Shown here: positions 3,206 through 64,000 of the stretch, in pieces | Layout: each line of letters opens with the position of its first letter | Position numbering within the stretch: the first letter of the stretch is position 1 | DNA from: Clostridiales bacterium | Lineage (GTDB): Bacteria; Bacillota; Clostridia; Christensenellales; Pumilibacteraceae | Direction: 5' to 3' | Length of the DNA: 64,000 nucleotides | Assembly: GCA_022508505.1 (NCBI GenBank) | Contig: JAFLVC010000006.1 | Span: forward strand, 62,001 to 126,000 | Made by a program: the position numbers and the translations under genes | Notes under the pieces: generated by a model | Told to the model about the DNA's origin: nothing | The model's database searches: none | What the model saw: only the letters and a program-made list of their open reading frames with translations

Positions 3206-3215
3206 GGAGGACCGA

Positions 3216-3698: not shown

Positions 3699-3704
3699 AC
3701 CGTA

Positions 3705-4319: not shown

Positions 4320-4329
4320 GGAGTTAATT

Positions 4330-4515: not shown

Positions 4516-4527
4516 GGAGGTATTAAA

Positions 4528-4923: not shown

Positions 4924-4933
4924 GAGGTAGATA

Positions 4934-49508: not shown

Positions 49509-50540
49509 ATGGCGGATTCCTCGCAGGACAAGCGGCTTGAATCGGGCGCACTGCTCGACGACAATGGCGAGCTCATCGAGAGCGGTTATGCGTTCTCGCA
49601 GGTCAAGACCTACGACCGCGCCGCTGTCCGGCGCAAGCGTTTGCGCATAAAGGAATGGGACTACTACTATTTCGGCGACGACAAGCGCGGCGTTGCGCTC
49701 ACCGTCGCCGATAATTCGTACATGTCGCTCGGATCCGTGTCCGTTCTCGACTTCGAGCACCTGACGTATATCACCAAGAGCAAGATCGGGCTGTTCCCTA
49801 AAGGTAAGCTCAATATGCCCAAGGCTTGCGAAAGCGGCGACGTCCTTTTCGATAAGGGCGGGGTGAAGATAGAGTTTACAAACGGGGGCGGCGAGAGAAA
49901 GCTCGAGGCGACGTACAAGAAGTTCGACGGCAAACAGGACTTTTGGTGCGAGATCGTGCTCGAGCCGTACGTCGGCGACAACATCACGACGGCAACGCCG
50001 TTTAATAAGCGGCGGCAGTTCTATTACAACACCAAGATAAACTGTCTCAAGGGTCACGGCACAGTCCGTGTCGGCGACGACCGCCATGAGTTTGTCGGCG
50101 GTAGTGGCGTGCTCGATTGGGGCAGGGGCGTGTGGCCGTACAAGAACGTGTGGTATTGGTCGAGCCTGTCGACCGAGGTGAACGGCATTCCGTTCGGACT
50201 CAACCTCGGCTACGGCTTCGGTAATCCGACCGCCACGGAAAACACAGTGTTCTACGGCGGCAAGGCGCACAAGCTGAACAATGTAAAGTTCGATATTCCG
50301 TTTACGCTCGGCGCGATAGACTACCTCAAACCGTGGAAGATCGAGGACGACGAGGGAAGACTGCAGCTCACTTTCTATCCCGTCATTGACAGAAAGGACA
50401 AGATGAACGTCGGGCTGCTGTCGACAGATCAGCATCAGGTTTTCGGCAAGTTCTACGGCAAAGCGACGCTCGACGACGGCACGATAGTGACGGTTACCGA
50501 CAAGATAGGATTCGCGGAACACGTCAGGAATAAATGGTAA
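49509..50540 (+). CDS. DUF2804 family protein
   Basis: This 343-residue protein matches DUF2804, a family of unknown function. Recognisable segments are KEWDYYYFGDDKRGVALTVADNSYMSLGSVSVLDF, the central GSGVLDWGRGVWPYKNVWYWSSLS and GIPFGLNLGYGFGNPTATENTVFYGGKAHKL, and a C-terminal ALDDGTIVTVTDKIGFAEHVRNKW-like end. It has no signal peptide. It starts 3 bp after the rpsI stop with only a weak ribosome binding site, so its translation is probably coupled to rpsI. Linkage to a ribosomal operon is likely incidental. Confidence 0.85.
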   Translation: MADSSQDKRLESGALLDDNGELIESGYAFSQVKTYDRAAVRRKRLRIKEWDYYYFGDDKRGVALTVADNSYMSLGSVSVLDFEHLTYITKSKIGLFPKGKLNMPKACESGDVLFDKGGVKIEFTNGGGERKLEATYKKFDGKQDFWCEIVLEPYVGDNITTATPFNKRRQFYYNTKINCLKGHGTVRVGDDRHEFVGGSGVLDWGRGVWPYKNVWYWSSLSTEVNGIPFGLNLGYGFGNPTATENTVFYGGKAHKLNNVKFDIPFTLGAIDYLKPWKIEDDEGRLQLTFYPVIDRKDKMNVGLLSTDQHQVFGKFYGKATLDDGTIVTVTDKIGFAEHVRNKW

Positions 50541-50601
50541 TACTGCGGCGAAAGCCGCGAGAAAAACAAAAGAATATGCCCGACATAAGTCGGGCGAGTA
50601 C

Positions 50602-50691
50602 GGAGAGATGGCTGAGCGGCTGAAGGCACACGCTTGGAAAGCGTGCATACTGTAACAGGTATCGCGGGTTCGAACCCCGCTCTCTCCGCCA
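50602..50691 (+). tRNA. tRNA-Ser (anticodon GGA)
   Basis: The 90-base gene has a 7-bp acceptor stem (GGAGAGA / TCTCTCC), an anticodon stem CACGC/GCGTG with loop TTGGAAA (anticodon GGA at 50636-50638), a long variable arm and a GGTTCGAACCCC T-arm. The CCA end is encoded (50689-50691). It reads UCC and UCU serine codons. Its 3' 58 bases are the left attachment site of the adjoining prophage, and integration leaves the gene intact. Confidence 0.95.
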
Positions 50692-50692
50692 A
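50634..50692 (+). repeat. Left attachment site (attL core) of the prophage
   Basis: This 59-bp sequence, from the anticodon loop to one base past CCA of tRNA-Ser, is repeated exactly at 59552-59610. It is the target-site core used by the integrase gene just downstream. Confidence 0.93.
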
Positions 50693-50700
50693 AGACCGAA

Positions 50701-50736
50701 AAACGGTGTTTTGTGACCACAAAGCGCCGTTTTTTT
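50701..50736. terminator. Bidirectional terminator-like hairpin at the left prophage end
   Basis: AAACGG and CCGTTT arms enclose a TTTTGT..ACAAAG inner stem. T runs occur on both strands (TTTTTTT on plus; TTTTT on minus). It can end tRNA transcription rightward and, in the circular form, integrase transcription leftward. Confidence 0.65.
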
Positions 50737-50763
50737 GCACTTCATGACCACTTGAACGGAAAA

Positions 50764-50776
50764 GTATGCACGCTTA
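50764..50776. repeat. Inverted 13-bp copy of the attachment core
   Basis: AGTATGCACGCTT is the exact reverse complement of AAGCGTGCATACT at 50639-50651 within the attachment core. It lies just beyond the integrase stop. It could be a second integrase core- or arm-type binding site. Confidence 0.5.
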
Positions 50777-50784
50777 ATTTAGTT

Positions 50785-51702
50785 TTACGTACCGATTTTC
50801 GACGGATTATAACCGTCGAGCTTTTCGAGCTCCTTTCGCTCGAATTCCGTTGTAACATGACTGTAAAAGTTCGCCGTCGTGCCGTAGTTGCTATGCCCGA
50901 GCCATTTCTGAACCGTCTTCATGGAAACCCCGGCTTCTAAGCAGCGCGTGCCGAATGTGTGCCGCAAGTCCTTGAGCGTGAACGAGAAGTTCAACCGTGC
51001 CACGATATCACTTAAATGTCGCATTGCCATTTGATACGAAGTAGGGAAGAGTCGCGCGCGATCCTTCGGCAGCTCGTCCAATAATGCTCGTAGCTTCTTA
51101 GATATAGGCAAGAGCCTGTCCGAGCGCACCGTCTTTGTGCCGGGAATACGCAAGTATTCCTCGCCGACATTATCCCAGGTCATACTCAACGGTTCCGATG
51201 GGCGAGCTCCGGTCAACAGGTAAAACCGGAAAAGCGCGTAATCCTCATCATTGGCAGCTTCCGCCAAAAACGCAGCTTCTTCCGCAGCAGTCAGCGAACG
51301 CCCACTATAATACTTGTGCGACACTCCGGCGACAGCGGCCACCGGGTTACTATCTATATGCCCGCACCGAACAGCTTCCCGGAACGCCTGATTATACACC
51401 TGCCGCACCACTTGTCGCATACGCTCCGAAGAAACGGCATTAAGCGCCGATTGTATGTCCGAAGGCTTATACTGATTAAGCGGTCGATCGCGAATATTCG
51501 GCTTAACGTGCTTTGCTATGACATGGGATAAGTCGTAACCACCGTCGCGCAACTTCGGCGCCCGATAGACAGTAAACCACTCGTCAAGCCAGGCATGCAA
51601 TGTTACCGAACAATCCGAAGGAGCGGAAGACAAAATTGTCAACCGCTCCGAGATTTTATCGAGCTTGTCCGATATTGTAAGTAGCACGTCGAGGATATCC
51701 AC
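50785..51702 (-). CDS. Prophage tyrosine integrase
   Basis: This 305-residue site-specific recombinase would move the element in and out of tRNA-Ser. A charged helix (residues 1-25) and SAM-like DNA-binding domain (about 35-125) precede the catalytic domain. The catalytic residues seen are Arg167 (LTGARPSEPL), Lys190, Arg247 (LKDLRHTFGTR), His270 (WLGHSN) and the nucleophile Tyr280 (NFYSHV). The first His of the usual HxxR box is Lys244. It lies at the end of a leftward operon, next to the left att site, 1 bp after the upstream gene. Confidence 0.93.
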   Translation of the reverse strand: MDILDVLLTISDKLDKISERLTILSSAPSDCSVTLHAWLDEWFTVYRAPKLRDGGYDLSHVIAKHVKPNIRDRPLNQYKPSDIQSALNAVSSERMRQVVRQVYNQAFREAVRCGHIDSNPVAAVAGVSHKYYSGRSLTAAEEAAFLAEAANDEDYALFRFYLLTGARPSEPLSMTWDNVGEEYLRIPGTKTVRSDRLLPISKKLRALLDELPKDRARLFPTSYQMAMRHLSDIVARLNFSFTLKDLRHTFGTRCLEAGVSMKTVQKWLGHSNYGTTANFYSHVTTEFERKELEKLDGYNPSKIGT

Positions 51703-51703
51703 G

Positions 51704-52207
51704 CTATACGTTAAGCCCGAGTTGGTGCTTCTTGTTCGCCAGCTCCACAGCCTTTACGACGATTGCTTTGTCCGACGCCGTTTCAAAGCGCAGCGGAGCG
51801 GCAAAGTCGCCCTCGATCTCGTCGCGAACGTAAGCGTAATAGGACACGGTGGACGCGCTACGGCCGGTTGCAAAATCCCTGCGTTTCGTTATCCGAACCG
51901 CAAAATCGACGGTATCGTTTTGCCCGAACACCATGTCAAGCAACGCATAAGCGCTTACGTCGGCGAACCGATCTTCCGTTTTCCCGGGCCGAACTCGTAC
52001 TTGCATAGCGACGCCGCGCAGCGTGCAATTAAAGAAGTAATCGCTGTACTTCTTGCCGCCCTTGTTGGTTGTCTTGCGCGTTACCGTAACGTCGGGTATG
52101 ACCGTATACAAACTGCGCACTTCTTCGTTGTCTTCGTTGAGTACAACATCATCTTCGTTGACTACTTCGTTCTCAACTACTTCTTTTGCCTTCTTTACTT
52201 CTTCCAT
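51704..52207 (-). CDS. Prophage protein, 167 residues, possible ssDNA-binding protein
   Basis: I do not recognise this protein with certainty. It has an acidic N-terminal 30 residues followed by a beta-rich domain (LYTVIPDVTVTRKTTNKGGKKYSDYFFNCTLRGVAMQVRV, given as a region at residues 32-72) and no membrane segment. Its place in the leftward early operon, its size and its beta-rich fold are compatible with a single-stranded DNA-binding protein such as filamentous phages need, but no motif proves it. An AAGGAG box precedes the ATG. The integrase begins 1 bp after its stop. Confidence 0.65.
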   Translation of the reverse strand: MEEVKKAKEVVENEVVNEDDVVLNEDNEEVRSLYTVIPDVTVTRKTTNKGGKKYSDYFFNCTLRGVAMQVRVRPGKTEDRFADVSAYALLDMVFGQNDTVDFAVRITKRRDFATGRSASTVSYYAYVRDEIEGDFAAPLRFETASDKAIVVKAVELANKKHQLGLNV

Positions 52208-52366
52208 GACCGTAATCTCCTTTTTGGTCTAAATATTTGCTTCCGGGAAACCCCGGGGAAAGCCGTCCGCGCTCGCAGCGATCCGCCAAGAAAGCTTTGA
52301 GCGCGAGCATGGGAGTAATGCCCGTGCTGCCATTGCGGCAGCCGAATGCCATTTTTACAAAGAGCT

Positions 52367-52669
52367 TTACTTGCTCTTTTTCGCCGCCGCTTTGCTCTTT
52401 TTATACTCCTCGCGCTCTTTGCGCTTACGAGCTTTGTATGCGGCGCGCTCGGCGGCAGTCGCGTTCTTGTACGCCGTAATTCTTGCGCTCTCGTTAAGAG
52501 CATCACGTTGACCTCTTGCATAAGCTCGCTGCTCGGCCGCACTGAACTTACTATCCTTTTTAACAGGCTTTTCACCGTTAGCGACCTGCGTGTAATGCTT
52601 ACGCTTCTCTTTCAGACTAAATCTGGGCACTTGTTTCTTTCCTTTCCCCTTGAGCCTGGGGGCGAGCAA
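52367..52669 (-). CDS. Prophage small basic protein, 100 residues
   Basis: This 100-residue protein is very rich in Lys, Ala and Arg (for example RARGQRDALNESARI is close to its middle, and it ends KSKAAAKKSK). It looks helical and DNA-binding, with no hydrophobic segment. A GGGAAAGGAA-type ribosome binding site precedes the start. A 159-bp gap to the next gene contains a CCGGG..CCCGG hairpin (about 52253-52266). No homologue is recognised. Confidence 0.6.
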   Translation of the reverse strand: MLAPRLKGKGKKQVPRFSLKEKRKHYTQVANGEKPVKKDSKFSAAEQRAYARGQRDALNESARITAYKNATAAERAAYKARKRKEREEYKKSKAAAKKSK

Positions 52670-52676
52670 TTATTAC

Positions 52677-52796
52677 TTATTCGTATAGATCACACGGCTC
52701 TTCACACGGAGCCCTAAAGTCCCTATCCGGCATATCGAAAGGGAAATCACAACGCTCATTCTCTGCGTCATAAAATACACACATGAAACAACTCAT
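52677..52796 (-). CDS. Prophage Cys-rich mini-protein, 39 residues
   Basis: The frame encodes a 39-residue acidic protein (begins MSCFMCVFYDAENERC, ends CEEPCDLYE) with five cysteines arranged CxxC, C and CxxxC, suggesting metal binding. Its ATG overlaps the TGA of the upstream 88-residue gene (ATGA), typical of coupled genes, and the next gene starts 7 bp after its stop. No homologue is recognised. Confidence rests on this packing. Confidence 0.5.
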   Translation of the reverse strand: MSCFMCVFYDAENERCDFPFDMPDRDFRAPCEEPCDLYE

Positions 52797-53059
52797 AATT
52801 GCACCTCGTCTTTGAACAATTCGGCTTGTTCGGCAAGCGCTATTATATCTTCCCAATCAAGCAAGAATATTCGATTGCCTAATGCAACCATCGGGGCGGC
52901 AGTATTCGCTCCAATAGATAACTCGAACTGCACCGTTTGACCGTCGACGACGACATCGCCACTACCGACATACTGCCTAAAAAATAAAGCATTGTCGACG
53001 ACTTTACCATACTTGTGTTCGCCGACAGCTACGGCGAAAGTCTTTGTCTTTTCTTCCAT
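52793..53059 (-). CDS. Prophage protein, 88 residues, first gene of the leftward operon
   Basis: This 88-residue protein (EEKTKTFAVAVGEHKYGKVV, then a LLDWEDIIALAEQAELF helix near the end) has no membrane segment or known motif. It is the first gene behind the repressor-controlled leftward promoter, so it may be an early regulator or replication accessory protein. The ribosome binding site is GGGGG 10 bp before the ATG. Its stop overlaps the start of the Cys-rich mini-protein. Confidence 0.6.
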   Translation of the reverse strand: MEEKTKTFAVAVGEHKYGKVVDNALFFRQYVGSGDVVVDGQTVQFELSIGANTAAPMVALGNRIFLLDWEDIIALAEQAELFKDEVQL

Positions 53060-53082
53060 ATTAAATTTACCCCCATGTGTAA

Positions 53083-53147
53083 TTCCGAAAATCGGAACAA
53101 ATACATTATAATTCCGTTTTTCGGAATTGTCAATCCGTTTTTCGGAA
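53083..53147. promoter_or_regulatory. Three repressor operators
   Basis: Three copies of TTCCG-N5-CGGAA lie at 53083-53097 (spacer AAAAT), 53112-53126 (TTTTT) and 53133-53147 (TTTTT, with ATCCG in the left arm). Site 2 fills the spacer of the leftward promoter, site 1 lies at its start point, and site 3 lies directly upstream of the repressor's own -10 box. This resembles a lambda-type operator set and is the likely binding site of the XRE protein encoded beside it. Confidence 0.82.
53105..53133 (-). promoter_or_regulatory. Consensus leftward prophage promoter
   Basis: On the minus strand TTGACA (53133-53128) and TATAAT (53110-53105) are perfect, with 17-bp spacing. It drives the leftward operon that ends with the integrase. 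Operator 2 occupies the spacer exactly. Confidence 0.85.
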
Positions 53148-53151
53148 TTTC

Positions 53152-53160
53152 TGCTATAAT
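53152..53160 (+). promoter_or_regulatory. Extended -10 promoter of the repressor, apparently leaderless
   Basis: TGCTATAAT (TGn-TATAAT) is an extended -10 box without a good -35. Transcription should start at about 53167, the A of the repressor ATG, and no ribosome binding site is present. Confidence 0.7.
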
Positions 53161-53166
53161 TTTTTC

Positions 53167-53439
53167 ATGAATTATCATTTTGGGCAAAAATTAAAAGAAC
53201 TACGAAAAGAAAAGGGGATAACACAAGCAGAACTCGCCCAAATTTTTAATACAAGTAAAACCACTATTTGCCAATATGAAACAAGCAAACAAGAACCAGA
53301 TTTAACACTTATTACAAAAATAGCAATTTACTTCGCGGTATCAACTGACTACCTTCTCGGCCTAGAAGACGAGAACGGAGCAAAGACTTACAACACGTAC
53401 AACAATTACGGCACGCATAAAGGCGACGTTAAGTTTTAA
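53167..53439 (+). CDS. Prophage XRE-family (CI/Cro-type) repressor
   Basis: This 90-residue protein has an N-terminal helix-turn-helix of the HTH_3/XRE type in residues about 8-62 (LKELRKEKGITQAELAQIF, SKTTICQYE, then FAVSTDYLLGL). The short remainder (NTYNNYGTHKGDVKF) lacks the peptidase-like dimer domain of LexA-type CI, so RecA-dependent self-cleavage is unlikely. It is transcribed away from the early operon and should bind the three operators beside it. The mRNA appears leaderless, as for lambda cI. Confidence 0.9.
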   Translation: MNYHFGQKLKELRKEKGITQAELAQIFNTSKTTICQYETSKQEPDLTLITKIAIYFAVSTDYLLGLEDENGAKTYNTYNNYGTHKGDVKF

Positions 53440-53454
53440 AAAGGAATTGCAAAA

Positions 53455-53988
53455 ATGATAACAGCAGACAACCGCCCGAGCAATACAAACATATCCCCAA
53501 TGCCGTTTACATTTCTATTTATTGCCTGTATCGTAATTGCGACAATATCGTTTATCGGACTTATATTCGCTTTACGCAAACGCATTCGAATCAATAAAGG
53601 TTTAGCTGTAAATACTTCCGGCAATGCCGCAGCAATCGCTTTACTTACTCCTCTTTTATTACTCTGTATTGTCGGCATAGTGTTCATCGGAATTGGGCGA
53701 GAAGCGACCGACGACGATATAAACATTGACCTCGAACAAAAAATATCCCTAAATATGAATTTTGACATTACCGCCTATGAAGACATAAGCGACCTTGAAA
53801 TAAAATTCGAATTCACAAATAAAAACGGCGTCGTTATATCCACCAAATACAAAAAAGTCGGAGACGTTCAAAAAGGCAAGACTTATCAAGTATCTATCAA
53901 ATTGACGGAGTTCAGCCTATCAGATATAGCGAATGCTTATGAAGTATCCGCAGAAGTTACAGGCGGAAGAGTATCATATTTCTCATAA
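53455..53988 (+). CDS. Membrane protein co-expressed with the repressor
   Basis: This 177-residue protein has two hydrophobic segments (about residues 17-42 and 58-82) followed by a roughly 90-residue exposed beta-rich domain (NIDLEQKISLNMNFDITAYEDISDLEIKFEF, residues about 92-122). It follows the repressor by 15 bp with an AAGGA box, so it is expressed in the lysogen. Genes in this position often give superinfection exclusion or alter the host surface. That role is inferred only. No family is recognised. Confidence 0.65.
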   Translation: MITADNRPSNTNISPMPFTFLFIACIVIATISFIGLIFALRKRIRINKGLAVNTSGNAAAIALLTPLLLLCIVGIVFIGIGREATDDDINIDLEQKISLNMNFDITAYEDISDLEIKFEFTNKNGVVISTKYKKVGDVQKGKTYQVSIKLTEFSLSDIANAYEVSAEVTGGRVSYFS

Positions 53989-53997
53989 CAACTATTT

Positions 53998-54022
53998 CCT
54001 CGCCGCAGCGAGGTTTTCTTTT
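53998..54022 (+). terminator. Terminator of the repressor operon
   Basis: CCTCGC pairs with GCGAGG around CGCA and is followed by TTTTCTTTT, 9 bp after the membrane protein stop. Confidence 0.8.
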
Positions 54023-54445
54023 GCCTCTAAATCCTCGTACACCTACACCTATTGCGCTATCGCATTGTGCCGTATGCCGTGCGTGTCCGGCGCGTCGCAG
54101 GAGTTGATAGAGGGTGTGTGCGCGGGTAATCCGGCGTGAGGTCGCGCGGTAGTTAAGCTTTCGTGCCCGCCTCAATATGCGACGCGCTCGCGTTAAAATT
54201 CGCTCCTTCGTCGCTCATCTCGCTTAGAGGTTTCGCACCGCTTTTACACGCTCCTTCTGTACAGGCGTTTCATAAGCCCGTTTGAGTGTTACACGTTGCT
54301 TGTCTTGACGAGCGGCGCGCCGGGGCGCGCCGGACAAGCAAAATCGCGCTCGGAACGCCCCGGCGGCGGCAACGCAGGCTGTATGCCGCCGCCGGGCGGG
54401 GGGATTGGGCGCGTGAATGTGCGGTTTTGTTCGTTTCCCGGCACG
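54023..54445. other. Prophage non-coding region with strong hairpins (candidate replication origin/packaging signal)
   Basis: This GC-rich block of about 420 bp has no convincing gene. It contains GCTTGTC..GACAAGC (54298-54304 with 54333-54339) enclosing CGGCGCGCC/GGCGCGCCG, and a 12-bp perfect stem joining 54359-54370 to 54385-54396 with a 14-nt loop. It lies directly downstream of the rolling-circle initiator gene. Inoviruses keep their plus and minus origins and packaging hairpin in such an intergenic region, which is the likely role here. The nick site cannot be named from sequence alone. Confidence 0.55.
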
Positions 54446-54468
54446 AAAAAACGACCGCTTTCGCAGTC
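54446..54468 (-). terminator. Terminator of the rep/structural operon (minus strand)
   Basis: On the minus strand GACTGC pairs with GCGGTC (one G-T) around GAAA, followed by GTTTTTT, about 38 bp after the initiator stop. Confidence 0.75.
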
Positions 54469-54505
54469 TTGCCGTTTAGATCTATTTAATTTTTAGCCTT
54501 TTCCG

Positions 54506-55807
54506 CTATGCCGGCGGTTCGTCTATAAGCCCTATATCGCAGCACCGTTGTTCATCAATCGTCATGCGGCGTTTTATGGTCGTAGGGTTCCGGCGAATAA
54601 CCGAAGGATCTATTACATAGCGCTTGACTTTTCTTTTGCAGCTTATATTGAAAAACATTACCATATCATTCTTAAAAAACTCGCCGACGAACTCGGAAGG
54701 CAAGTGCCTGGAATAAAATACCTTTTCGCCTTTTTCCATATACCGGCACATTTTCGCCGTGTATGTCGCCATAGCCTTAATATCCGACCGCATTGCTTCC
54801 CGGATATCCTCGTACTCGTTTACGCCGAATTTTTCTCGTACTTCTGTATTCTCAATGTACTCGTGAATGCAGCCATGCTTTTTACTGTAATGTTGCTGCT
54901 CTACCAGCTCTCCGATCTCTTTGCCTTCCGGGATATAAAAGAAGCCGTGAAAGTGCAACCGTTCATTTTCCTCGCCGTGCTCGAATACGCCCATAATACG
55001 CCAGCCCTTCCGAACTGCCATGTTATTGAACCATTTAAGTAGCACCTTTCTGAACACGGCTTCGGAAGAAAACTTTGCGCTGTCGTATGTAATCGTCCAC
55101 CATGCCGTCCATTGCGTTTGGTCCTTCTTCCGATGAAATCGCCGCTTCCTGGCAGAATACGCCGCGGATAAATTGTAAATCTTCCGCGATACAAACTCGT
55201 AACAGGTTTCCTGCTCGACATTATCGTCATATTCGTAGCCTTCATAAAAGGAGTTTACAAGCTCGCTTTCTATCTTGCAGCGCTGCTCTTTATACGGGTA
55301 CTTCTGTCGCAATTCGCGATAATGGAAATCGAAAAGCTCGTCCCAATATGTCTTTTCGTAAACCGTCCTTTCCGCTGCGGCGTTTTCGCCCGGGATATAT
55401 GCAACATATTGCCCGCCGTCGTAATAATACTTATATGTCCCGACACGAGTATCGTTCTCGTCTACAAGACCGCTGACGAGCTCCTCGGTCTTCTTTCGGC
55501 GTGCCTTATACATTTCTTCCGGGGTAGGCAACTTAATGCCGTTTTCGCGCGCCAATTCTTCCTGCTGGGCGAGGAACCGCGCGCGATCGGGGAAGTGCCG
55601 ATTACGATACACCCGGACATACCCGGCGATAAATCTGTTTTGACGAGCACGCCCCCATGTGCATTTTTTAAGCTCAGGGAACTCGTCGGAAGAATAATTA
55701 CACAACGGAAGAAGCTCGCCGTTCTCTTTCTCGATAGGGCGAGCGAATAACCGAATTATTTCCGGGTTCGTTTCCGGCACAAGACCATACTGCGAAAATT
55801 TACTCAT
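54506..55807 (-). CDS. Rolling-circle replication initiator (HUH endonuclease)
   Basis: This 433-residue protein should nick the double-stranded origin of the circular phage genome to start rolling-circle replication. The metal-binding HUH motif is at residues 285-287 (ERLHFHGFFYIPEG), and the catalytic tyrosine motif follows at about 349-356 (ATYTAKMCRYMEKG, Tyr349 or Tyr356 with Lys352). Upstream WTAWWTITYDSAKFSSEAVFRKVLLKWF fits motif 1. The first 220 residues are a long charged domain without clear homology. It is the last gene of the leftward structural operon, next to the putative origin. Confidence 0.9.
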   Translation of the reverse strand: MSKFSQYGLVPETNPEIIRLFARPIEKENGELLPLCNYSSDEFPELKKCTWGRARQNRFIAGYVRVYRNRHFPDRARFLAQQEELARENGIKLPTPEEMYKARRKKTEELVSGLVDENDTRVGTYKYYYDGGQYVAYIPGENAAAERTVYEKTYWDELFDFHYRELRQKYPYKEQRCKIESELVNSFYEGYEYDDNVEQETCYEFVSRKIYNLSAAYSARKRRFHRKKDQTQWTAWWTITYDSAKFSSEAVFRKVLLKWFNNMAVRKGWRIMGVFEHGEENERLHFHGFFYIPEGKEIGELVEQQHYSKKHGCIHEYIENTEVREKFGVNEYEDIREAMRSDIKAMATYTAKMCRYMEKGEKVFYSRHLPSEFVGEFFKNDMVMFFNISCKRKVKRYVIDPSVIRRNPTTIKRRMTIDEQRCCDIGLIDEPPA

Positions 55808-55828
55808 TACTTACTCCCATGAATGAAT

Positions 55829-56182
55829 TTATTTCGACACTTGCGACAGCGCTTCTTTTACTACCGGCACAAGCGCTTTTTCCGACTGATCAACCTGCGG
55901 TTCGGCTTTTGGCGGCTCGTCTTCCGGCGGTTCTTCGACTGCCTCTTCTTCTGCCGCTGCTTCTTCGGCAAGCTCTTTAGCGCGCTGCTTCTGATACTTC
56001 TTATCTGCCTTGCGTATCTTCTTCCAGGAGCGGCCAAACTCCTTACAGATAAACGACATAATCTTTTCGCGCATGAAAAGAGGTACATAATCTTCGGTAT
56101 CCAACAAACACTCAAAGGTCTGATTGAATTCGTTTATGCACTCGCGCATGAGCTCGGTTATATGGTAATTCAATTCCGACAT
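55829..56182 (-). CDS. Prophage acidic protein, 117 residues
   Basis: I do not recognise this protein. The first 75 residues are helical and basic at the end (ICKEFGRSWKKIRKADKKYQKQRAKEL). The rest is Glu/Pro/Ala-rich low complexity (EEEAVEEPPEDEPPKAEP). There is no signal or membrane segment, which argues against a coat protein. It lies 2 bp after the Zot-like gene and 21 bp before the initiator gene, so it is co-transcribed with both. Confidence 0.65.
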   Translation of the reverse strand: MSELNYHITELMRECINEFNQTFECLLDTEDYVPLFMREKIMSFICKEFGRSWKKIRKADKKYQKQRAKELAEEAAAEEEAVEEPPEDEPPKAEPQVDQSEKALVPVVKEALSQVSK

Positions 56183-56184
56183 AA

Positions 56185-57003
56185 CTACTCCTTTTTACTC
56201 GATTTGTAAAAACCCCGCGGCAGCTCGTCATCATTTTTCTCGTAGTACTCAATATACCCCTCGATAGAATCTTCCGTCGATTCTGCCGGCATATAATCGA
56301 TATCCTCGTCCAAATGCCCGGCATAGAACTTCGGCTTACAGCTCTGACTGTCGTAGCACTTAAAGACATTGTAATCGGCCTTGACTATCTCTTCGGTGTA
56401 ACAATCCTTGTCCGTTTTTCCGCTGTTCAAATACCGCTCAAGCAGACCGTTATTGTCAATACGGCGTATTCGCCATTTAAGCCCGATAATCTCGTCGTAC
56501 TTATTCCGGCGGATGTCAAGCTTGACTATTTCAATAAAACTCGACAGCTCGCGAATGTTTAAGTCAATAAGCCCGGGCCGCTGCGTATCCAGGTATATAT
56601 CCAGGTAGTCATGACCGTGCTGCTCGTACCAACGCGATTGCCAATCCGGATAAGCCTTACTCATGCGGCTATTGAGATACTTTTGCGCTTCCGTAATGAA
56701 TATTGCCTCATGCGGAAGATTAAAATGCGTTTTGACGTAGGGGTTATCAAAGCCGAGGCGGAAAGGATTTATTATGCGGTTCTGCCGCGGCCGATAACCG
56801 AACCGTTTAAGGCGTATTACATAATTCGCCGACACGCAATGTTGCGGGATCGTCTTTATGGCAGTAAAGCCCGAGGCAATCTTTGCTTCAAGCTCTTCCT
56901 GCATATACTTATTCCGCTGCCGATCGAATGCCGTTTGACACGCTAAGTGCGTCATAAAGCAAGTCTTCCCGGTGCGGGGTGGGGCAAAGATTATAGTTAT
57001 CAT
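56185..57003 (-). CDS. zot: Zot-like morphogenesis ATPase (inovirus pI type)
   Basis: Zot/pI proteins are the inner-membrane-associated ATPases that drive filamentous phage assembly and are the hallmark gene of inoviruses. The 272-residue protein begins MITIIFAPPRTGKTCFMTHLA, with Walker A at residues 7-14. Walker B is at about 100-107 (EAIFITEAQ, with the family's E-A-Q pattern), followed by the DYLDIYLDTQRPGLIDLNIRELSSFIEI block typical of the N-terminal Zot domain (PF05707). No C-terminal membrane segment is evident, unlike many Zot proteins. Its start overlaps the stop of the upstream surface protein gene. Confidence 0.9.
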   Translation of the reverse strand: MITIIFAPPRTGKTCFMTHLACQTAFDRQRNKYMQEELEAKIASGFTAIKTIPQHCVSANYVIRLKRFGYRPRQNRIINPFRLGFDNPYVKTHFNLPHEAIFITEAQKYLNSRMSKAYPDWQSRWYEQHGHDYLDIYLDTQRPGLIDLNIRELSSFIEIVKLDIRRNKYDEIIGLKWRIRRIDNNGLLERYLNSGKTDKDCYTEEIVKADYNVFKCYDSQSCKPKFYAGHLDEDIDYMPAESTEDSIEGYIEYYEKNDDELPRGFYKSSKKE

Positions 57004-58415
57004 GCCGAATTCGCACCTTCTTCCTTCTTCTCTTTAATCTTCCGCACAAGCGCGATAATCCCTTTAAACGGCAAAGATATAAGCCAGAACAAAGCCTTAA
57101 GGAGCCACAATAGCACAAAGCCAAGCGCCTTCAAGACTACAAGCAAAAACTGTCCGATAAACGGGAAAAGAGCTATCAGAATAGGCAAAACTATTGCGGC
57201 TCCAAAAACGATAAGAACCCACACCCACCAAGGCCAACTGTCATCATCAATCGATATATTATCCCTACGAGAACTTGCAGTACGCTTATCGTCGACTACT
57301 CCGACTTTATACGACACACCGTCCGTCTCATACGTCAACTGCAAAATTGACGTTTTCGACGGAGCAAGTACACCTGTACCGGGTTTTGAAACAGCGCCGC
57401 CACTCTCTACACCATAAGAAAGTTTCTTAGTATAAAACCGCACCACCCAAGATTTACTTTCAATTTCCTTTTTTACGGTTTTATCTAACTTATCACCGCT
57501 ATCTGTTATAGACTTAATAAATTCGCCTGAAGTTTGTATAGCACTAAACTTATGTTTTTTATATCCTTTCCACCAAGAACCTTCAACTACAGATGTAACA
57601 TCATCTGCAGTTATTATTTTTATTTGATTTTTATACCACGTATCAAGAACATGATCGGTTCCATATTCAACAACAACCACATCATATTTAATAGTTGCTT
57701 CCAATAAACGCTCTATAAAAACATCGGTGTTAAAAGCAATATAGAATAATGAAGTATTACTGCCGGAAACTATGCCCTCGTCCGTATGATAACGAAGAAC
57801 GCCGACATATTTTTCTGTAACCGTAATCGTATTCAACGACATAACGGAATAGATAACGGATTTACCCGAAGTTTCGGCAATCCATGTTTGACCGACAGCA
57901 TAAACTTTATTATCAATCGTATTGCCGTTGTCTACAACAGGCTCGCCATCAACCGACTTAATCCACGGTCGAGTTATCTGCACGATCGAATAAAACCGTG
58001 TGCCGGCAGAAGCCACTTTAAAGCCCTTAACGGCATACTTATAAAACGGTTCATCTTTCGACACCAACGTAAGCTCGTAATCAAGATACTTCGCCGTGTC
58101 TTCACTTGCCGACGTAGACATTCGAATTTCTTCTGCTTTAAAATCGCCGCTCGGTTGATAAGCATAAACATATAAACTGCCTTTATTCCCCTCGGCAATC
58201 TGGATAATCGAAATCGAATAATCATTGTCCCTTGCCGGGTAATTGACGATATCAAACGAAGGATCCTTTTTCAAATCTTCCAAGACGCCCGAAGGCGCTT
58301 CATCGGCGGCGTACGCTCTGACCGAAGGCACGAGCGCAAACAATGGCAGCACAAACAGCAGCACGCATAAAAGCGCTTGCCGCACTATAATCTTGACACT
58401 CTTTGTCTTATTCAT
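57000..58415 (-). CDS. Prophage surface protein with signal peptide and C-terminal membrane region (pIII/pVI-like)
   Basis: This 471-residue protein has a signal peptide (VRQALLCVLLFVLPLFALV, cleavage near YAA-DE), a large exposed domain of mainly beta type and a strongly hydrophobic end. That end begins WPWWVWVLIVFGAAIVLPIL and continues with two or three further hydrophobic stretches, then a basic KKEEGANSA tail. A signal, ectodomain and C-terminal anchor just upstream of zot is the layout of inovirus tip/adsorption proteins. Sequence homology is not evident. The ATG at 58415 has a GGGAGG box; a GTG four codons upstream lies inside that box. Confidence 0.8.
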   Translation of the reverse strand: MNKTKSVKIIVRQALLCVLLFVLPLFALVPSVRAYAADEAPSGVLEDLKKDPSFDIVNYPARDNDYSISIIQIAEGNKGSLYVYAYQPSGDFKAEEIRMSTSASEDTAKYLDYELTLVSKDEPFYKYAVKGFKVASAGTRFYSIVQITRPWIKSVDGEPVVDNGNTIDNKVYAVGQTWIAETSGKSVIYSVMSLNTITVTEKYVGVLRYHTDEGIVSGSNTSLFYIAFNTDVFIERLLEATIKYDVVVVEYGTDHVLDTWYKNQIKIITADDVTSVVEGSWWKGYKKHKFSAIQTSGEFIKSITDSGDKLDKTVKKEIESKSWVVRFYTKKLSYGVESGGAVSKPGTGVLAPSKTSILQLTYETDGVSYKVGVVDDKRTASSRRDNISIDDDSWPWWVWVLIVFGAAIVLPILIALFPFIGQFLLVVLKALGFVLLWLLKALFWLISLPFKGIIALVRKIKEKKEEGANSA

Positions 58416-58479
58416 ATTTCCTCCCACAAACGGAAAATAGGCAAGACACCTCTGCCTTGCCTCTATCCGTTTAAATCGA

Positions 58480-59523
58480 TTACATCACTACATTGCCCGG
58501 GGCGAGCTCGACACCGCCGACCGCAGTTCCCAGCGTAGTCAAATTGAACCCGAGATTGATTGTGCCGGTAAGCGTACTGTATTTACCGGTGACGCTGTAT
58601 GTAACTTTCATAGCGCCGCTACCGATTATAGAACCGGAACTACACTTCTGATAGAATGTAGACTTGCTAACGTACGCAGTCCCGTAAACTTGCTTTAAAA
58701 AGCTTTCGTTTATCATTACATCCGTAGGATCGCTGCTCGTAAGAGTATACGAACCGGGTACTTTACCGCCGCAATACGTCGACACAAATAAATCGCTCGC
58801 GGTAATTTCAATCTTATACGTAACCTCATCGGAAACCGTGCCGGTACCATAATAAGGGGATATGCCAAGACGATACTCGCTGCCGACATTGATAAGAGTA
58901 TCTGCTTTGCCGGTTACGGTATTGGTAATATTTTGACCGCCCTTCGATATGTTTTCGCCCTCATGCATAAAACGCAGCAAAAGCTGATTAAGTCTTTGCG
59001 CATAATCAACCGTACATGTTGCCATTTTGCTGTCGTCAAAAGTACTTTCACATGTAACGGTTATTTGCTCGCCGAAAGCCTGCTTGCCGACAAGAGTTGC
59101 CGTCATGCCCGCAACGCTCATATCGACATAATCGCCGACAGATTTCCCGGTCGCCCACGAACTTTCCGGATTCGTCCAATCTATAAAGAAATTAACTGTC
59201 TTTATAGACGCGTCTTCCGGCGTAACCGTCGCAGTGATTTTTATGCCGTCCGCCGCTGCAATCGCATTGGTCGAAGCATAGGGAACAACCTTAAGCGAAA
59301 CCGTTTCGGAGTTCTCAACCTCTGCTATAAGGTCATTGACCTTGAGCTTGTCATCTTCTTCGGTGTCTTTCTTCTTTTCGGTTTTCTTAGTATTGCTTGA
59401 GAACCATGTGGACACCTTCCAATTCGTGAAACCTTCCGAACCCCACGCAATCGTGATGAATGCCGCAAGCACGAAGGTCAATACAACGATTATTGCAATC
59501 GTTTTTCTTGTAATTTTAGTCAT
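58480..59523 (-). CDS. Prophage surface protein with N-terminal membrane anchor
   Basis: This 347-residue protein has one N-terminal hydrophobic segment (residues about 8-27, KTIAIIVVLTFVLAAFITIAW), a charged linker (KKTEKKKDTEEDDKLK) and a beta-rich exterior. Patterns such as VTPEDASIKTVNFFIDWTNP and ITVTCESTFDDSKMATCTVDY are Ig-like (Big_2-type). It may be a virion or adsorption protein and is the first gene of the leftward operon. The ATG at 59523 follows AAAGGAGA by 8 bp. The longer ORF to 59736 runs through the tRNA-derived repeat and is rejected. Confidence 0.75.
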   Translation of the reverse strand: MTKITRKTIAIIVVLTFVLAAFITIAWGSEGFTNWKVSTWFSSNTKKTEKKKDTEEDDKLKVNDLIAEVENSETVSLKVVPYASTNAIAAADGIKITATVTPEDASIKTVNFFIDWTNPESSWATGKSVGDYVDMSVAGMTATLVGKQAFGEQITVTCESTFDDSKMATCTVDYAQRLNQLLLRFMHEGENISKGGQNITNTVTGKADTLINVGSEYRLGISPYYGTGTVSDEVTYKIEITASDLFVSTYCGGKVPGSYTLTSSDPTDVMINESFLKQVYGTAYVSKSTFYQKCSSGSIIGSGAMKVTYSVTGKYSTLTGTINLGFNLTTLGTAVGGVELAPGNVVM

Positions 59524-59551
59524 TTTTTTGCTCTCCTTTAATTGAAAATTT

Positions 59552-59610
59552 TTGGAAAGCGTGCATACTGTAACAGGTATCGCGGGTTCGAACCCCGCTC
59601 TCTCCGCCAA
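59552..59610 (+). repeat. Right attachment site (attR core) of the prophage
   Basis: This is an exact 59-bp copy of 50634-50692, the 3' part of tRNA-Ser from the anticodon loop to CCA plus one A. It is a tRNA fragment and not a functional gene. Confidence 0.93.
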
Positions 59611-59862
59611 GCGGCACCGAGTTGAACAATAAAGTTCGGCTCGGTTTTTGTATTTAATCAAAATATTGTGTTTCATGGTATAAATATATATTTCTACAGT
59701 GGCGTTGAGCATACAAACGCACGAAGAATCGATCATGTTTAAAAATAAGAAAAATATAATGTCACGGTGGAAAAAGCAGGTAAAAAAACTCTATTTATAT
59801 ATAAAGGGTACTAAGGAGGACAATTATGAAGACTTAGCGCTTTTAGCTGTTAATCGGAGATG
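59611..59862. other. AT-rich region right of the prophage
   Basis: About 250 bp hold a CGGCACCGAG...CTCGGTTTTTG hairpin (about 59612-59648), a TATAAA-like box, and an excellent AAGGAGG ribosome binding site at 59815-59821 followed by ATG, two codons and a stop. No convincing full gene is seen; a gene remnant is possible. Confidence 0.5.
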
Positions 59863-60753
59863 CTATAGCTTATTTCTGTAATTGAACTTATTAAGGACTT
59901 GCTTTTTGCGTTGGGTGGTGACTTCTGTATAGATTTGGGTTGTAGCAATGCTTGCATGTCCGAGTATTTCTTGAACCGAACGAAGATCTGCGCCGTTGGC
60001 GAGTAGGTTGGTAGCAAAGGTATGGCGTAGATAATGCGGTGTAGAGTAAGTCCCGATTTTTGCTTTTTTTAAGTATTTCTTGTAGATGTATTCTATCCCG
60101 TGTATGCTTATGGGACGGCCGTACCGGTTGACAAAAAGTCCGTTACACCCATCTGAATTCTTGCGTTCTTTTAATAGCGCGACAATTCGGGTCCATGTAA
60201 TGGGAGAGGATATGTAGATAAGCCGTTGCTTGCGGCCCTTTCCGTGGATGAGCAAAGTGCGTTCGGAAACGATAATGTCGTTTAGTGTAATGGCAGCGGC
60301 TTCGCCGATGCGGATGTCGGTGCTTATAAGTAAATCGATTAGCGCCGCGTCGCGGGTGTATTCAGACTTGGCAAAACGAGAGAGGGAATCGAACTCAACA
60401 GAATCGAAGCAATTGAGAATTTTCGATACGTCTCTAACGGCAATGGTTTTTGGAAGCTTGCGCTCTTGCTTGAAACGAAATTTCAGTTTGGCAAAAGGTG
60501 AGCGGTCCATGACTTCGGTATCTACAAGATAGGAATAGAAACATTTTAGAGTAATTATCTTGCGTCGAATGGAAGTATCTTTGAGTTTAAGCTGAGAACT
60601 TAGATGCGAAATGAACGAGCAAATGTCCGGTTTTAAGATGTTTTGTTCAAAAGAAAAGAATTGATGCAGATCACTTTTGTAAGCGAATAGGGTTTTGACG
60701 GACAAGTTTTTAGTAGCTCGTAAGTAGCTGATGAATTTCGACAAATAGTCCAT
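59863..60753 (-). CDS. Tyrosine recombinase (XerC/XerD-like), second integrase
   Basis: This 296-residue recombinase is unrelated in detail to the prophage integrase. It has an N-terminal SAM-like domain (residues about 5-85) and a full catalytic set: Arg148 (STDIRIGEAAA), Lys172 (HGKGRKQR), His240 and Arg243 (TPHYLRHTFATNLL), His266 (ILGHAS) and Tyr275 (TQIYTEV). It looks like Xer or an integrative-element recombinase. It lies 253 bp beyond the prophage's right repeat, close to the tRNA fragment, and is divergent from the STAND gene 92 bp away. It may belong to a second element carrying that gene. Confidence 0.92.
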   Translation of the reverse strand: MDYLSKFISYLRATKNLSVKTLFAYKSDLHQFFSFEQNILKPDICSFISHLSSQLKLKDTSIRRKIITLKCFYSYLVDTEVMDRSPFAKLKFRFKQERKLPKTIAVRDVSKILNCFDSVEFDSLSRFAKSEYTRDAALIDLLISTDIRIGEAAAITLNDIIVSERTLLIHGKGRKQRLIYISSPITWTRIVALLKERKNSDGCNGLFVNRYGRPISIHGIEYIYKKYLKKAKIGTYSTPHYLRHTFATNLLANGADLRSVQEILGHASIATTQIYTEVTTQRKKQVLNKFNYRNKL

Positions 60754-60845
60754 GATTCCTCCAAAATGTAAAATTATCTATCTTACAGTATACCAAATTA
60801 GGGTGCAATGTACCTTACAATAACTTGTAATTATTTGGAGTAAAG

Positions 60846-63800
60846 ATGAAGCGATATTTTAGTGAGAAGTCGCCCAATATTCATTGGAAGTTAAATGAAA
60901 ATTTGGGAAATAGGTTTGAAGATTTAATAACAAATTTGATGATTGAACAATTAAAGAAATATCATCCTAATGTTATCGTACACCAAACACAGAGAAGTGC
61001 GGACGGCGGTAAAGACATAGTCGTAATTTCGAAAAAAGATAATTTAAATATATTGGGGCAAAAATTTATATTAAACGGAAAAAACGAGATAAAAATTTTT
61101 TTTGAATGTAAAAGCACTGACGATTCCGTTTTAAGTTATGATAAAGTCTGTTCCAGTTTTACCCGTGCCAAACATCAAAACATAGATTATTATGTTCTAG
61201 TTACCAATAGCACAATTTTACCGCAAGCTTTTTGGCTTATAGAAGATGATTTAAGCGCGAGTCATATAGCATTTAAGCTTATTGACAGCTTTTTGCTTGG
61301 AACATTTATTGCAGATTTTGCATCTCCAAATTCTAATAAAACAATTAAAAATCCTTACGATAAATCAAGCAAAGCTGATTTTTATTTTGAATATCAAGTA
61401 GATTCTTTTAAGGAACAACTCACAAATAAGTATGATATTTATATGCTATTGCGGAACTACTCAAGCAATAATAAATTATGTAAATTAAGATTAATGACAG
61501 ATGTTAATTGGTCAATAGATATAGATGAGATATCATTAGCAATTGAACCCAATGGATTCGCAATAAAAAAAATAACAGTTCAGCAAAATCATTTTGATGG
61601 TGTTCCTGATTTATTGTTTAAAGTTCAAGTTAATGGAACAGAATCCGATATTATGATAAACGGGATTGATGGCGATATAGTTTTCGATCCGCCATTTTTT
61701 GGAGAATCGCGCAAACTCCTAATAAATTCTTTATCCAATCAAATAAAAACTGGCGATACCCCGTCGGTAATATGTTTTTGGGGTGAAGCAGGGATAGGAA
61801 AGACACGGCTCGTTGAAGAGCTTATGTTAAAACTTAATGGAACACTATTTGATTTTTTTGAATGCAAATCGACAAGTGGGCAAAGATCAGAACAAAAGAT
61901 AATAAGGTTTTTAAATACAAAGAATTACATTCGTTCAGATGAAACTGGTGATTTTTCTACTATAATAAACAATTGCCATAACGAATACCGTCACGCAATA
62001 ATCTTCATCGATGATTTACATAATAGTTCCTCTGAATTTTTTGAGCAGATTAAGAAAATAAAACCGGCGTTAACAGATGTTACATTAATCATTTGTGGGC
62101 GCACAGATTTCGATATGGGGAATGTAGATTATTTGTCGTTTATAAAGTGGACAAAAGAAAAGATTAAGCACTGCTATGAGATTGACGGATTGAAAGATTC
62201 TGAAACTAAAAATATGATTAAAGCGATGGTCAATGGCGTTCCCGAATATGCGTTAAACAGACTACACAGATTGAGTATGAATAATCCATTATTTATTGTG
62301 CAATTTATTGAATACATGCTAGATGTTCGAATTGTCAAACTTATTAATCGCAATACCGTAGGTATCATCGATATAAATAGATTCCATGAAAAAGAATTCA
62401 TTCCTAAAAAAATCGAACACATCTATAAGCGAAGGATTGAAAACTTACTTAATGCTCCCGATGGTATAAATTTATTAAATTTTTTGTATAAATTAGCGCT
62501 TTGTAATGGTAAGTTCCAAAGAGTTGAATGCTACAAATATTTTGATTGTAACTATGATTATATAGATAAACTAAAAGAACATCGATTTATACAGAATGGT
62601 AAATATATATCATTTTTCCATGAAAGTTTTTTTCTGTACATTAAAAAACGCATAGAAAACGCGAGGAAATTACGTAAATCGTTAGCATCTGACATATTAG
62701 GAAAATATGATATTGAAAAGAAATTAAACAACTTTCTTCTGGGCCGCTTATGCGTTTATGCGAATAAAAATGAAACCGCTACAAATTACTTTGAGAATAT
62801 TATTTCTTGGATAGACAGAATTGATAATATATCTAATTTAAATGTTAATCTAGACTATTACGATTATTTATTTGATATTTTTGAATTATCAAGACAAAAT
62901 TTTTCATTTTATGAAATCGCGAAAAAGGCTTTGATTGCCCGTGTATATATCACATTACATCACTTTGCGCCTATCAATGCTGCGAACGAATGTGATATTG
63001 CAATATCTCTTATAAATAAATATAATTTATCTAATGACAAAAGAACTTTATTATCAATATTAGAATTAAAAGCACATGCTTTAATGAATGCAGGACTATA
63101 TGCTAATGGCGAAGCTCTGCTGAAAGAAATTCAAGTCAATTGGATCTTAGATAAAAAAATTTTAGACAACAAGACTTTGTTTGATATGTATGACCGACTT
63201 TCATCGGTTTATAGACACTTCAATCTTAAAGAACTTGCGATTAAATATAACGAACTATCAAGAGTATTAGCCGATGATCTCAATGATGCTCACTTGCAAA
63301 TGCTATCCAACAGAACGAAGTATAAAATACATTTGTATTTAGATAGAAATATAGCAGAGGAAAGCCTTAAAGAAACTAACGATTTAAACAAAATCACCCC
63401 GTTGCAGAGAATTAAAACAGATAACGATTTAGATTTATGTGGATTAAAGATTTTAAATAATAATAGTAACAACAATGATCAAATAATAGAAGAAATAAAA
63501 TTGCTGCATAATTATTCTGACAAGCAAGGCTTTAACCGAGCTAAAATACATTCATATTTTCTGTTGGCGGTTTGTTATTTATTAAAGGGTGACGAAAATT
63601 CGATAACAACAGCAGGCCAATATGTCGAAGAAGCAATCAATTTAAGCGCGACATTTGGCATTGTAGGCTACATGTGGAGATTGTACAATTTAGATGCGAT
63701 AATCAAAACCCGCTTAAATGCTGATTTTCAAGTAATACATAAAACATTCAACACGGTATTTGACATATTGCGGAATCGCGGTTTACTGTATATAGGCAAT

Positions 63801-64000
63801 TGCGACCTTACTCATGGAAATATTCTAGCCATTAGCAATTATGGTTTTCATTTGCAAGAGCAAAGATTTGAGTCTTTTTTCTATGAAAAGATGTCACTGA
63901 TAACTTTCAATATGCAAAATAGGTTATTATGCAAAATAGCGAAGAATGATGCGCATCCATTAAGCGAATATTTGGTTCAACAATATCAAAGAGCAAAGAA
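60846..64000 (+). CDS. Avs-like antiphage protein: PD-(D/E)XK nuclease + STAND NTPase + helical repeats (3' end outside window)
   Basis: The frame is open from ATG 60846 to the window edge (at least 1,051 codons). Residues about 15-130 form an Mrr-like PD-(D/E)XK nuclease: GNRFEDL (Glu25), ADGGKDIVVI (Asp57), FFECKS (Glu87-x-Lys89). A linker precedes a STAND/NACHT-type NTPase with Walker A GEAGIGKT (313-320), Walker B AIIFIDDLH (Asp389, Asp390), LIICGRTDF and NNPLFIVQFIEYM, then a winged-helix-like FFHESFFLYIKKRI. From about 610 onward it is alpha-helical and TPR-like. This is the Avs (AVAST) plan, where the C-terminal part senses phage proteins and the nuclease kills or cleaves DNA. Strong AT bias indicates transfer. 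Confidence 0.85.
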   Translation, partial: MKRYFSEKSPNIHWKLNENLGNRFEDLITNLMIEQLKKYHPNVIVHQTQRSADGGKDIVVISKKDNLNILGQKFILNGKNEIKIFFECKSTDDSVLSYDKVCSSFTRAKHQNIDYYVLVTNSTILPQAFWLIEDDLSASHIAFKLIDSFLLGTFIADFASPNSNKTIKNPYDKSSKADFYFEYQVDSFKEQLTNKYDIYMLLRNYSSNNKLCKLRLMTDVNWSIDIDEISLAIEPNGFAIKKITVQQNHFDGVPDLLFKVQVNGTESDIMINGIDGDIVFDPPFFGESRKLLINSLSNQIKTGDTPSVICFWGEAGIGKTRLVEELMLKLNGTLFDFFECKSTSGQRSEQKIIRFLNTKNYIRSDETGDFSTIINNCHNEYRHAIIFIDDLHNSSSEFFEQIKKIKPALTDVTLIICGRTDFDMGNVDYLSFIKWTKEKIKHCYEIDGLKDSETKNMIKAMVNGVPEYALNRLHRLSMNNPLFIVQFIEYMLDVRIVKLINRNTVGIIDINRFHEKEFIPKKIEHIYKRRIENLLNAPDGINLLNFLYKLALCNGKFQRVECYKYFDCNYDYIDKLKEHRFIQNGKYISFFHESFFLYIKKRIENARKLRKSLASDILGKYDIEKKLNNFLLGRLCVYANKNETATNYFENIISWIDRIDNISNLNVNLDYYDYLFDIFELSRQNFSFYEIAKKALIARVYITLHHFAPINAANECDIAISLINKYNLSNDKRTLLSILELKAHALMNAGLYANGEALLKEIQVNWILDKKILDNKTLFDMYDRLSSVYRHFNLKELAIKYNELSRVLADDLNDAHLQMLSNRTKYKIHLYLDRNIAEESLKETNDLNKITPLQRIKTDNDLDLCGLKILNNNSNNNDQIIEEIKLLHNYSDKQGFNRAKIHSYFLLAVCYLLKGDENSITTAGQYVEEAINLSATFGIVGYMWRLYNLDAIIKTRLNADFQVIHKTFNTVFDILRNRGLLYIGNCDLTHGNILAISNYGFHLQEQRFESFFYEKMSLITFNMQNRLLCKIAKNDAHPLSEYLVQQYQRAK

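Follow-up and report, generated by a model that had tools for sequence, protein, structure and literature searches.

The window analyzed here, a stretch of 64,000 nucleotides from a Clostridiales bacterium (contig JAFLVC010000006.1, positions 62,001 to 126,000), ends within a gene for a protein in which an Mrr-like nuclease is joined to a STAND-type NTPase (the nuclease-STAND gene). The start of this gene lies in one copy of a 38-bp inverted repeat, beside a gene for an Xer-like tyrosine recombinase, and the other copy of the repeat lies over the start codon of a carbamoyltransferase gene that converges on it from beyond the window. Two alternative junctions at the right-hand repeat are present in a single assembly, related recombinases are accompanied by a family of such two-gene cassettes, and whole cassettes have been exchanged at the same sites in relatives. 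The explanation that we regard as on balance probable is an invertible, exchangeable two-gene switch, in which the recombinase would flip the cassette and so place either gene behind a promoter. The features concerned are the following.

59863..60753, minus strand: Xer-like tyrosine recombinase, 296 residues (Phage_integrase, 1.4e-35)
60781..60809, plus strand: TCTTAC-17-TGCAAT, a degenerate pair resembling a promoter, placed where relatives have a near-consensus promoter
60813..60850, plus strand: left copy of the 38-bp inverted repeat, spanning the ribosome-binding site and the ATGAA of the nuclease-STAND gene
60814..60840, plus strand: dif-like recombination site CTTACAATAA-CTTGTAA-TTATTTGGAG, with the core common to relatives
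60846..64000, plus strand: nuclease-STAND gene, 1,076 residues, its final 76 bases outside the window
60906..61229, plus strand: Mrr_cat nuclease domain, residues 21-128 (Pfam, 24.6 bits; curated cut-off 21)
61758..62111, plus strand: AAA_22 NTPase match, residues 305-422 (Pfam, 43.5 bits; curated cut-off 27)
62412..63998, plus strand: C-terminal part of the nuclease-STAND protein, drawn as helices in a low-confidence fold and without a family match

An inverting segment and its two genes

The right copy of the repeat (7733-7770 of locus L003, or G000:C22:127732-127769 in the source contig) is inverted relative to the left copy, shows zero mismatches to it and lies 4.9 kb away. The carbamoyltransferase gene whose start it spans (L003 7737-6067) encodes 556 residues with Carbam_trans_N (6.2e-35) and Carbam_trans_C (1.8e-63) Pfam matches, and its 3′ end overlaps that of the nuclease-STAND gene by 11 bp. 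Neither the repeat nor this partner gene was visible in a preliminary description of the window, because the second copy lies outside it. A search of the assembly for the 38-mer, with up to three mismatches, located it in two places on contig C22 and in one near the start of contig C12. The first 27 bases of the latter contig belong to the nuclease-STAND gene; the repeat comes next, and then the flank that ends C22, such that the two contigs share 121 bp of repeat and flank. Both right-hand junctions, carbamoyltransferase–repeat–flank and STAND–repeat–flank, are therefore held in one assembly, and thus the 4,957-bp segment inverts, either inside one clone or between strains present in the sample. 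Duplication of the locus was also considered as the source of the extra repeat and was rejected, as the flank in C12 is the one with which C22 ends.

The locus thereby has the traits of an inverton, with a perfect inverted repeat adjoined by a site-specific recombinase and with both orientations represented by the right-hand junctions, subject to the reservations on the left-hand junction and on strain mixture given below; in the assembled orientation it is the nuclease-STAND gene that stands on the recombinase side. The recombinase scores 226 bits (5.4e-67) against the XerC model TIGR02224 and 209 bits against the XerD-side model TIGR02225, under the respective cut-offs of 335 and 330, and is for this reason classed as Xer-like and as neither XerC nor XerD. 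It is probably the invertase of the cassette. The preliminary description had noted a recombinase here and had counted it in support of a defense gene; it is indeed present, and it signifies more than mobility, since it belongs to a family found beside invertible cassettes, one of which holds the nuclease-STAND gene.

What had been described of the nuclease-STAND gene itself holds in most respects. Its frame (60846-63998, plus strand) is free of stops up to the window edge, and in the source contig it ends 76 bases further on, stop codon included (L003 2847-6077, or G000:C22:122846-126076). The proposed nuclease residues E25, D57 and E87-C-K89, the GEAGIGKT motif (313-320, with K319) and I388-D389-D390 are all at their claimed positions, and both the Mrr-like and the NTPase domain exceed the curated Pfam cut-offs; nSTAND6, NB-ARC and NACHT matches all lie under cut-off, and past residue 422 there are zero Pfam matches at E ≤ 0.1, TPR families included. 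The long helical C-terminus that had been claimed is indeed drawn as helices, yet solely in a fold predicted for the window's 1,051 residues from the single sequence, without an alignment, at a mean predicted local distance difference test score (pLDDT) of 36.4, a very low confidence that made the fold unusable and kept it out of fold searches. The label "Avs-type" was not substantiated. The protein does combine an N-terminal effector nuclease with a central NTPase, as Avs/AVAST proteins do, but it matches neither a family model nor a solved member: at E ≤ 1, DpdK (0.012) was the sole match among PADLOC models, and solved structures in the PDB gave zero matches. Homologs were found in its own genome only, among 20 genomes of the genus and 74 of the family, and the same holds for the carbamoyltransferase among the 20 genus genomes. 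No relatives were confirmed in viral contigs, and plasmids yielded one Ruegeria record (22.6% identity across 39% of the protein). We infer that the gene is an anti-phage defense gene and that its product has nuclease activity; by analogy with Avs, the C-terminus would probably sense an infection product, the protein would assemble through its NTPase and the Mrr domain would cut DNA.

The genomic setting had been offered as support for a defense role, and its elements are all present: the G+C content falls to 35% and 31% in the final two 2-kb blocks of the window, and a tRNA-Ser gene is adjoined by a provirus. This inovirus-like provirus (50602-59610) is inserted in the tRNA gene and bounded by an exact 59-bp direct repeat (50634-50692 and 59552-59610); it contains an integrase-like frame (50785-51702, by eye) and Zot and REP_ORF2-G2P matches that are both just under the Pfam cut-off. 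Window positions 50500-60800 gave no near match in a phage collection. Just past the far site of the cassette, and reading away from it, a further frame (L004 177-2105) encodes 642 residues with SLOG cluster-2 domain and TIR matches and is a possible further defense gene.

A family of recombinase-linked cassettes

Relatives of the recombinase that match over their full length, at 73-84% identity, are present in four other genomes of the genus, and a wider scan of genome contigs confirmed 106 relatives, of which 80, largely from Clostridia, were kept. Defined as AATAA-7 bp-TTATT with at least 9 of 10 letters and sought within 320 bp upstream of the recombinase, the core site was found at 53 of the 76 loci with at least 40 bp of upstream sequence, compared with 4.8% of control windows taken downstream of the recombinase. 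Likewise, among the 45 loci for which the upstream sequence reached at least 1.5 kb, exact inverted repeats of at least 18 bp linked the upstream region of the recombinase to DNA further out in 22, compared with 13 of 740 control windows. The pattern TTACAATAACTNNNAATTAT, with one mismatch permitted, occurred in 10 of the 20 genus genomes and its reversed control in none; a related pattern was found in 17 of 17 genomes, with one reversed-control match overall, these genomes having been chosen for holding such recombinases and many of the sites being palindromic and thus counted on both strands.

Twenty-six cassettes were described, namely the 22 above and four from the genus of the window (two from G000, one each from G001 and G005), and L171 and L167 were added later. 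At 46 of the 52 cassette ends, the distance from the site inward to the start codon is 0-60 nt (median 12), which suggests that transcription should come from outside the cassette. Although 20 different 7-bp spacers occur, both ends of a cassette carry the same spacer in 25 of the 26 cases, a count that follows partly from the selection of exact repeats. Tyrosine recombinases require a matching overlap sequence, and the equal spacers therefore fit an enzyme of this class. The core of L091, AGTAA, was missed by the automatic core finder, and at two loci, L103 and L171, the gene beside the right-hand site reads outward, an exception to the convergent plan.

These regularities bear on one alternative, in which the nuclease-STAND gene is an ordinary defense-island gene, the repeat a relic or an assembly effect and the recombinase a leftover of the neighboring provirus. 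The provirus does end 250 bp from the recombinase gene, and genes flanking the loci also match PADLOC models. However, the repeat lies exactly over both start codons, the alternative junctions occur in one assembly and the link between recombinase and site is conserved across the loci, so that this alternative seems to us scarcely credible.

Inversion is also apparent in relatives, as homologous cassettes lie in opposite orientation to the recombinase in L114 and L121, in L103 compared with L100 and L105, and in L055 and L121. Moreover, the contig breaks off within 260 bp of the recombinase on its upstream side at 28 of 80 loci, compared with 5 of 80 downstream, as expected where assembly stops at a flipping segment, and of the 20 genus sites on contigs of known length, 12 are no more than 130 bp from a contig end. 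In G479, a 4,389-bp contig consists of one whole cassette, whose left and right ends share 141 bp and 34 bp, respectively, with the start of the recombinase contig. The same sites are also points of whole-cassette replacement. The flanks of L113 and L116 are 94.05% (4,874 bp) and 95.5% (3,108 bp) identical and this identity breaks at the sites, around cassettes that neither blastn nor blastp shows to be similar; the pattern recurs in L105 and L114, with unrelated cassettes between flanks of 81% (618 bp) and 84% (1,227 bp) identity.

By Pfam, with several NTPase and TPR matches under the curated cut-off, a cassette has a TIR, SIR2, STAND-like, pentapeptide or unknown protein as one partner and, in most cases, a small-molecule enzyme as the other, as follows.

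L003: Mrr-AAA protein (nuclease-STAND) with carbamoyltransferase
L128 (G000:C22), 105-5275: second cassette of the same genome, an 815-residue AAA/NTPase-type protein (under cut-off) opposite GNAT-SHMT and alcohol dehydrogenase
L061, L066, L080, L084, L098: SIR2-STALD opposite TIR, a Thoeris-like pair (TIR of L061 under cut-off)
L130: AAA protein with Mrr-like N-terminus (20.6 bits, cut-off 21), with glycosyltransferase 2
L167: weak NTPase matches, N-terminus Mrr-like by eye only, with glycosyltransferase 2
L097: TIR-AAA (TIR under cut-off) with SHMT
L113: TIR-TPR with D-Ala-ligase-like and radical SAM enzymes
L127: AAA-TPR (under cut-off) with D-Ala-ligase-like enzyme
L055, L114, L121: proteins of about 800 residues with GNAT-SHMT
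L054, L065, L076, L091: large proteins with D-Ala-ligase-like enzymes
L051: pentapeptide protein with ATP-grasp protein
L171: pentapeptide protein with pyridoxal-dependent decarboxylase
L116: glycosyltransferase 2 with weak CAP12-TIR match
L108: TIR with small AAA protein
L129: unknown protein with spermidine-synthase-like protein
L059, L100, L103, L105: proteins of about 345 and 560 residues, Pfam matches weak or none

Across 131 bp, the left flank of L128 and the DNA upstream of the window's recombinase share 93% identity. Compared with PADLOC models, a set of 60 cassette proteins gave matches to 33 families, with ThsA models matching 7 of the 60, and a set of 57 flank proteins gave matches to 57 families, including KwaB, PDC-S34, QatA and PifA; the flank set comprises 57 of 60 proteins drawn at random, one very long frame and two locus-end frames having been left out. 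We claim no enrichment of defense families inside cassettes over flanks, these counts being of families and not of matching proteins, and the surroundings being defense-rich. The preliminary claim of a defense gene thus gains from the company that the nuclease-STAND gene keeps, five Thoeris-like cassettes and others with TIR or NTPase proteins, and stays presumptive in view of flanks that are rich in defense genes too.

Two further observations concern the range of the family. Three such recombinases with cassettes (L059, L061 and L091) come from contigs assigned to Candidatus Scatousia excrementigallinarum, which we take to be a non-Clostridia lineage, and reflect either wide transfer or wrongly binned contigs. 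In an isolate, Anaerocaecibacter muris CLA-AA-M11 (G001), an intact cassette (L129 5021-6766) shares its contig with the recombinase gene and is about 125 kb away from it, from which it follows that the recombinase may act at a distance.

Probable alternate expression and what the pairs may do

In many relatives the two flanks differ. Under a simple promoter score of our own (near-consensus at 7.4 or above; 95th percentile of background, 7.2), an inward near-consensus promoter was found in the recombinase-side flank of 10 of 24 cassettes and in the far flank of 1 of 24, a count that omits L129, where the near side had been set by the promoter and the result would be circular, and L130, which is cut off (with both, 11/25 and 2/26). 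In 28 of a wider set of 53 loci, the −10 element of the best hexamer pair precedes the site arm by 7-10 bases, and in 6 it does so by 19-21 bases. Of 27 far flanks, 9 hold a terminator-like hairpin that points into the cassette, two of the nine, those of L113 and L116, being one shared flank; the corresponding counts are 0 of 27 for near flanks and 5 of 150 for background windows. At seven loci (L100, L103, L104, L105, L108, L110 and L114) a shared element like ATTTCGAGGAGA replaces the consensus promoter between recombinase and site.

We therefore envisage two convergent genes, each with its start codon immediately within one of a pair of inverted dif-like sites, between which the adjoining recombinase would exchange strands; the resulting flip of the 4,957-bp segment would set either the nuclease-STAND or the carbamoyltransferase gene beside the recombinase-side flank. 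Because that flank, and not the far one, has a strong promoter in many relatives, expression probably alternates between the two genes.

Several observations weigh against this reading. The assembly did not show the fourth junction, which would join the left flank to the carbamoyltransferase gene, and the genome may be a mixed population, in which case the two junctions could come from two strains. For the cassette of the window's own genome, the promoter on the recombinase side is degenerate (score 6.5, near background, compared with 6.6 for the far flank) and no terminator-like hairpin was found in the cassette flanks; with flanks that score alike and without a terminator, alternation in this cassette rests on homology. 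Across the family, 23 of 76 recombinases have no core site nearby and 23 of 45 loci no 18-bp inverted repeat. No homologs of the nuclease-STAND protein were found beyond its own genome among 391 genomes of the class at E ≤ 1e-8, which leaves its function without comparative support. Finally, Thoeris needs both of its proteins acting jointly, and this fits badly with strict alternation, unless residual protein together with flipping gives transient immunity, the far gene is transcribed otherwise or the halves act apart.

This last difficulty leads to an alternative in which the two genes form one two-component defense system, a signal-making enzyme with a sensor-effector as in Thoeris, and inversion tunes the dose of the two or arms the system only around a flip, while the old protein persists and the new one is in production. 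Such a view would account for the five cassettes that hold both Thoeris parts, for the joint conservation of both partners by blastp within L055/L114/L121 and within L059/L100/L103/L105, and for the recurrence of certain enzymes (D-Ala-ligase-like or other ATP-grasp, GNAT-SHMT and glycosyltransferase). It is harder to reconcile with a recognizable promoter on one flank only in 10 of 24 cassettes, with far flanks that often carry terminator-like hairpins, with a partner of the L128 GNAT-SHMT that has no blastp match to those in L055/L114/L121, and with partners of D-Ala-ligase-like enzymes that are unrelated to one another. We judge it a real possibility, but rather an unlikely one.

Alternatively, the enzyme may be the point of the switch, which would then vary a carbamoylated or glycosylated surface or secreted molecule, with the large NTPase proteins as regulators or passengers and not anti-phage. 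Carbamoyltransferase and glycosyltransferases are indeed among the partners, and gut-bacterial invertons often lie near surface genes according to the abstract of PMC11892184; however, the five TIR and SIR2-STALD cassettes hold no surface enzyme, and the nuclease domain of the window's protein exceeds its Pfam cut-off, which makes this alternative quite unlikely.

The two-gene switch can be carried one step further, to a tentative and in our judgment doubtful proposal of "split immunity." Gut and rumen Clostridia would keep the halves of two-component systems (TIR and SIR2-STALD, or a STAND-type sensor and a signal-making enzyme) facing each other in invertible, exchangeable cassettes behind one promoter, making mainly one half at a time, such that full immunity would arise only around inversion or would vary between cells; the sites would let whole cassettes swap between genomes, and the carbamoyltransferase would be the true partner of the nuclease-STAND protein. 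More generally, if one recombinase family flips and exchanges whole Thoeris-like and STAND-type pairs, innate defense in gut bacteria can vary from cell to cell, and a gene list carries no information on the defense that is active. This also poses the question of how a two-protein system works with one half behind the promoter, and it means that new defense pairs could be found by reading the DNA between dif-like sites.

Comparison with known systems

Avs4-type STAND proteins consist of an Mrr-like nuclease, a STAND NTPase and a C-terminal sensor, and the nuclease-STAND protein has its nuclease and NTPase in this order, but differs in having no detectable match to PADLOC models or solved structures. 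Thoeris, with ThsA (SIR2-STALD) and ThsB (TIR), is encoded by adjacent genes, as are the pairs of the five Thoeris-like loci, all of them outside the window; here, in contrast, the two genes converge within a pair of inverted sites, in most cases with a single visible promoter, and the pair to which the nuclease-STAND gene belongs is not Thoeris.

Among the matches listed from the open-licence PubMed Central literature, taken without bioRxiv, there was no description of invertible two-gene defense cassettes of this kind, the nearest being the mba switch of Ureaplasma and the pXerC/D plasmid inversions. Recombinases often lie beside anti-phage genes, and their role in phage defense is described as unknown, in the abstract of PMC12529663. 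The available passages of PMC11892184, on the invertons of one gut community, include hsdS genes and hold no match for "Thoeris" or "phage." In the mba/UU376 locus of Ureaplasma parvum, a XerC-type recombinase binds short inverted repeats and inverts the locus, such that two proteins alternate; those proteins are surface antigens, however, and neither cassette exchange nor a cross-genome family was found in the passages of PMC3599477 at hand. The pdif modules of Acinetobacter resemble the cassettes in that oppositely oriented Xer-type (pXerC/D) sites with varied spacers bound inverting segments, but, in the available part of PMC9947245, these are 11-6-11 host XerC/XerD sites, as opposed to the 7 bp between AATAA and TTATT here, and they bound plasmid resistance modules without a dedicated recombinase gene beside the cassette. 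DNA inversion itself is familiar from surface antigens and hsdS genes. A further comparison is the shuffling of hsdS in phase-variable type I restriction (PMC4948785 and PMC11892184, in the parts available), in which a tyrosine recombinase and inverted repeats likewise vary a defense gene within a population; there, parts of one specificity subunit are exchanged, whereas here whole genes of different function are.

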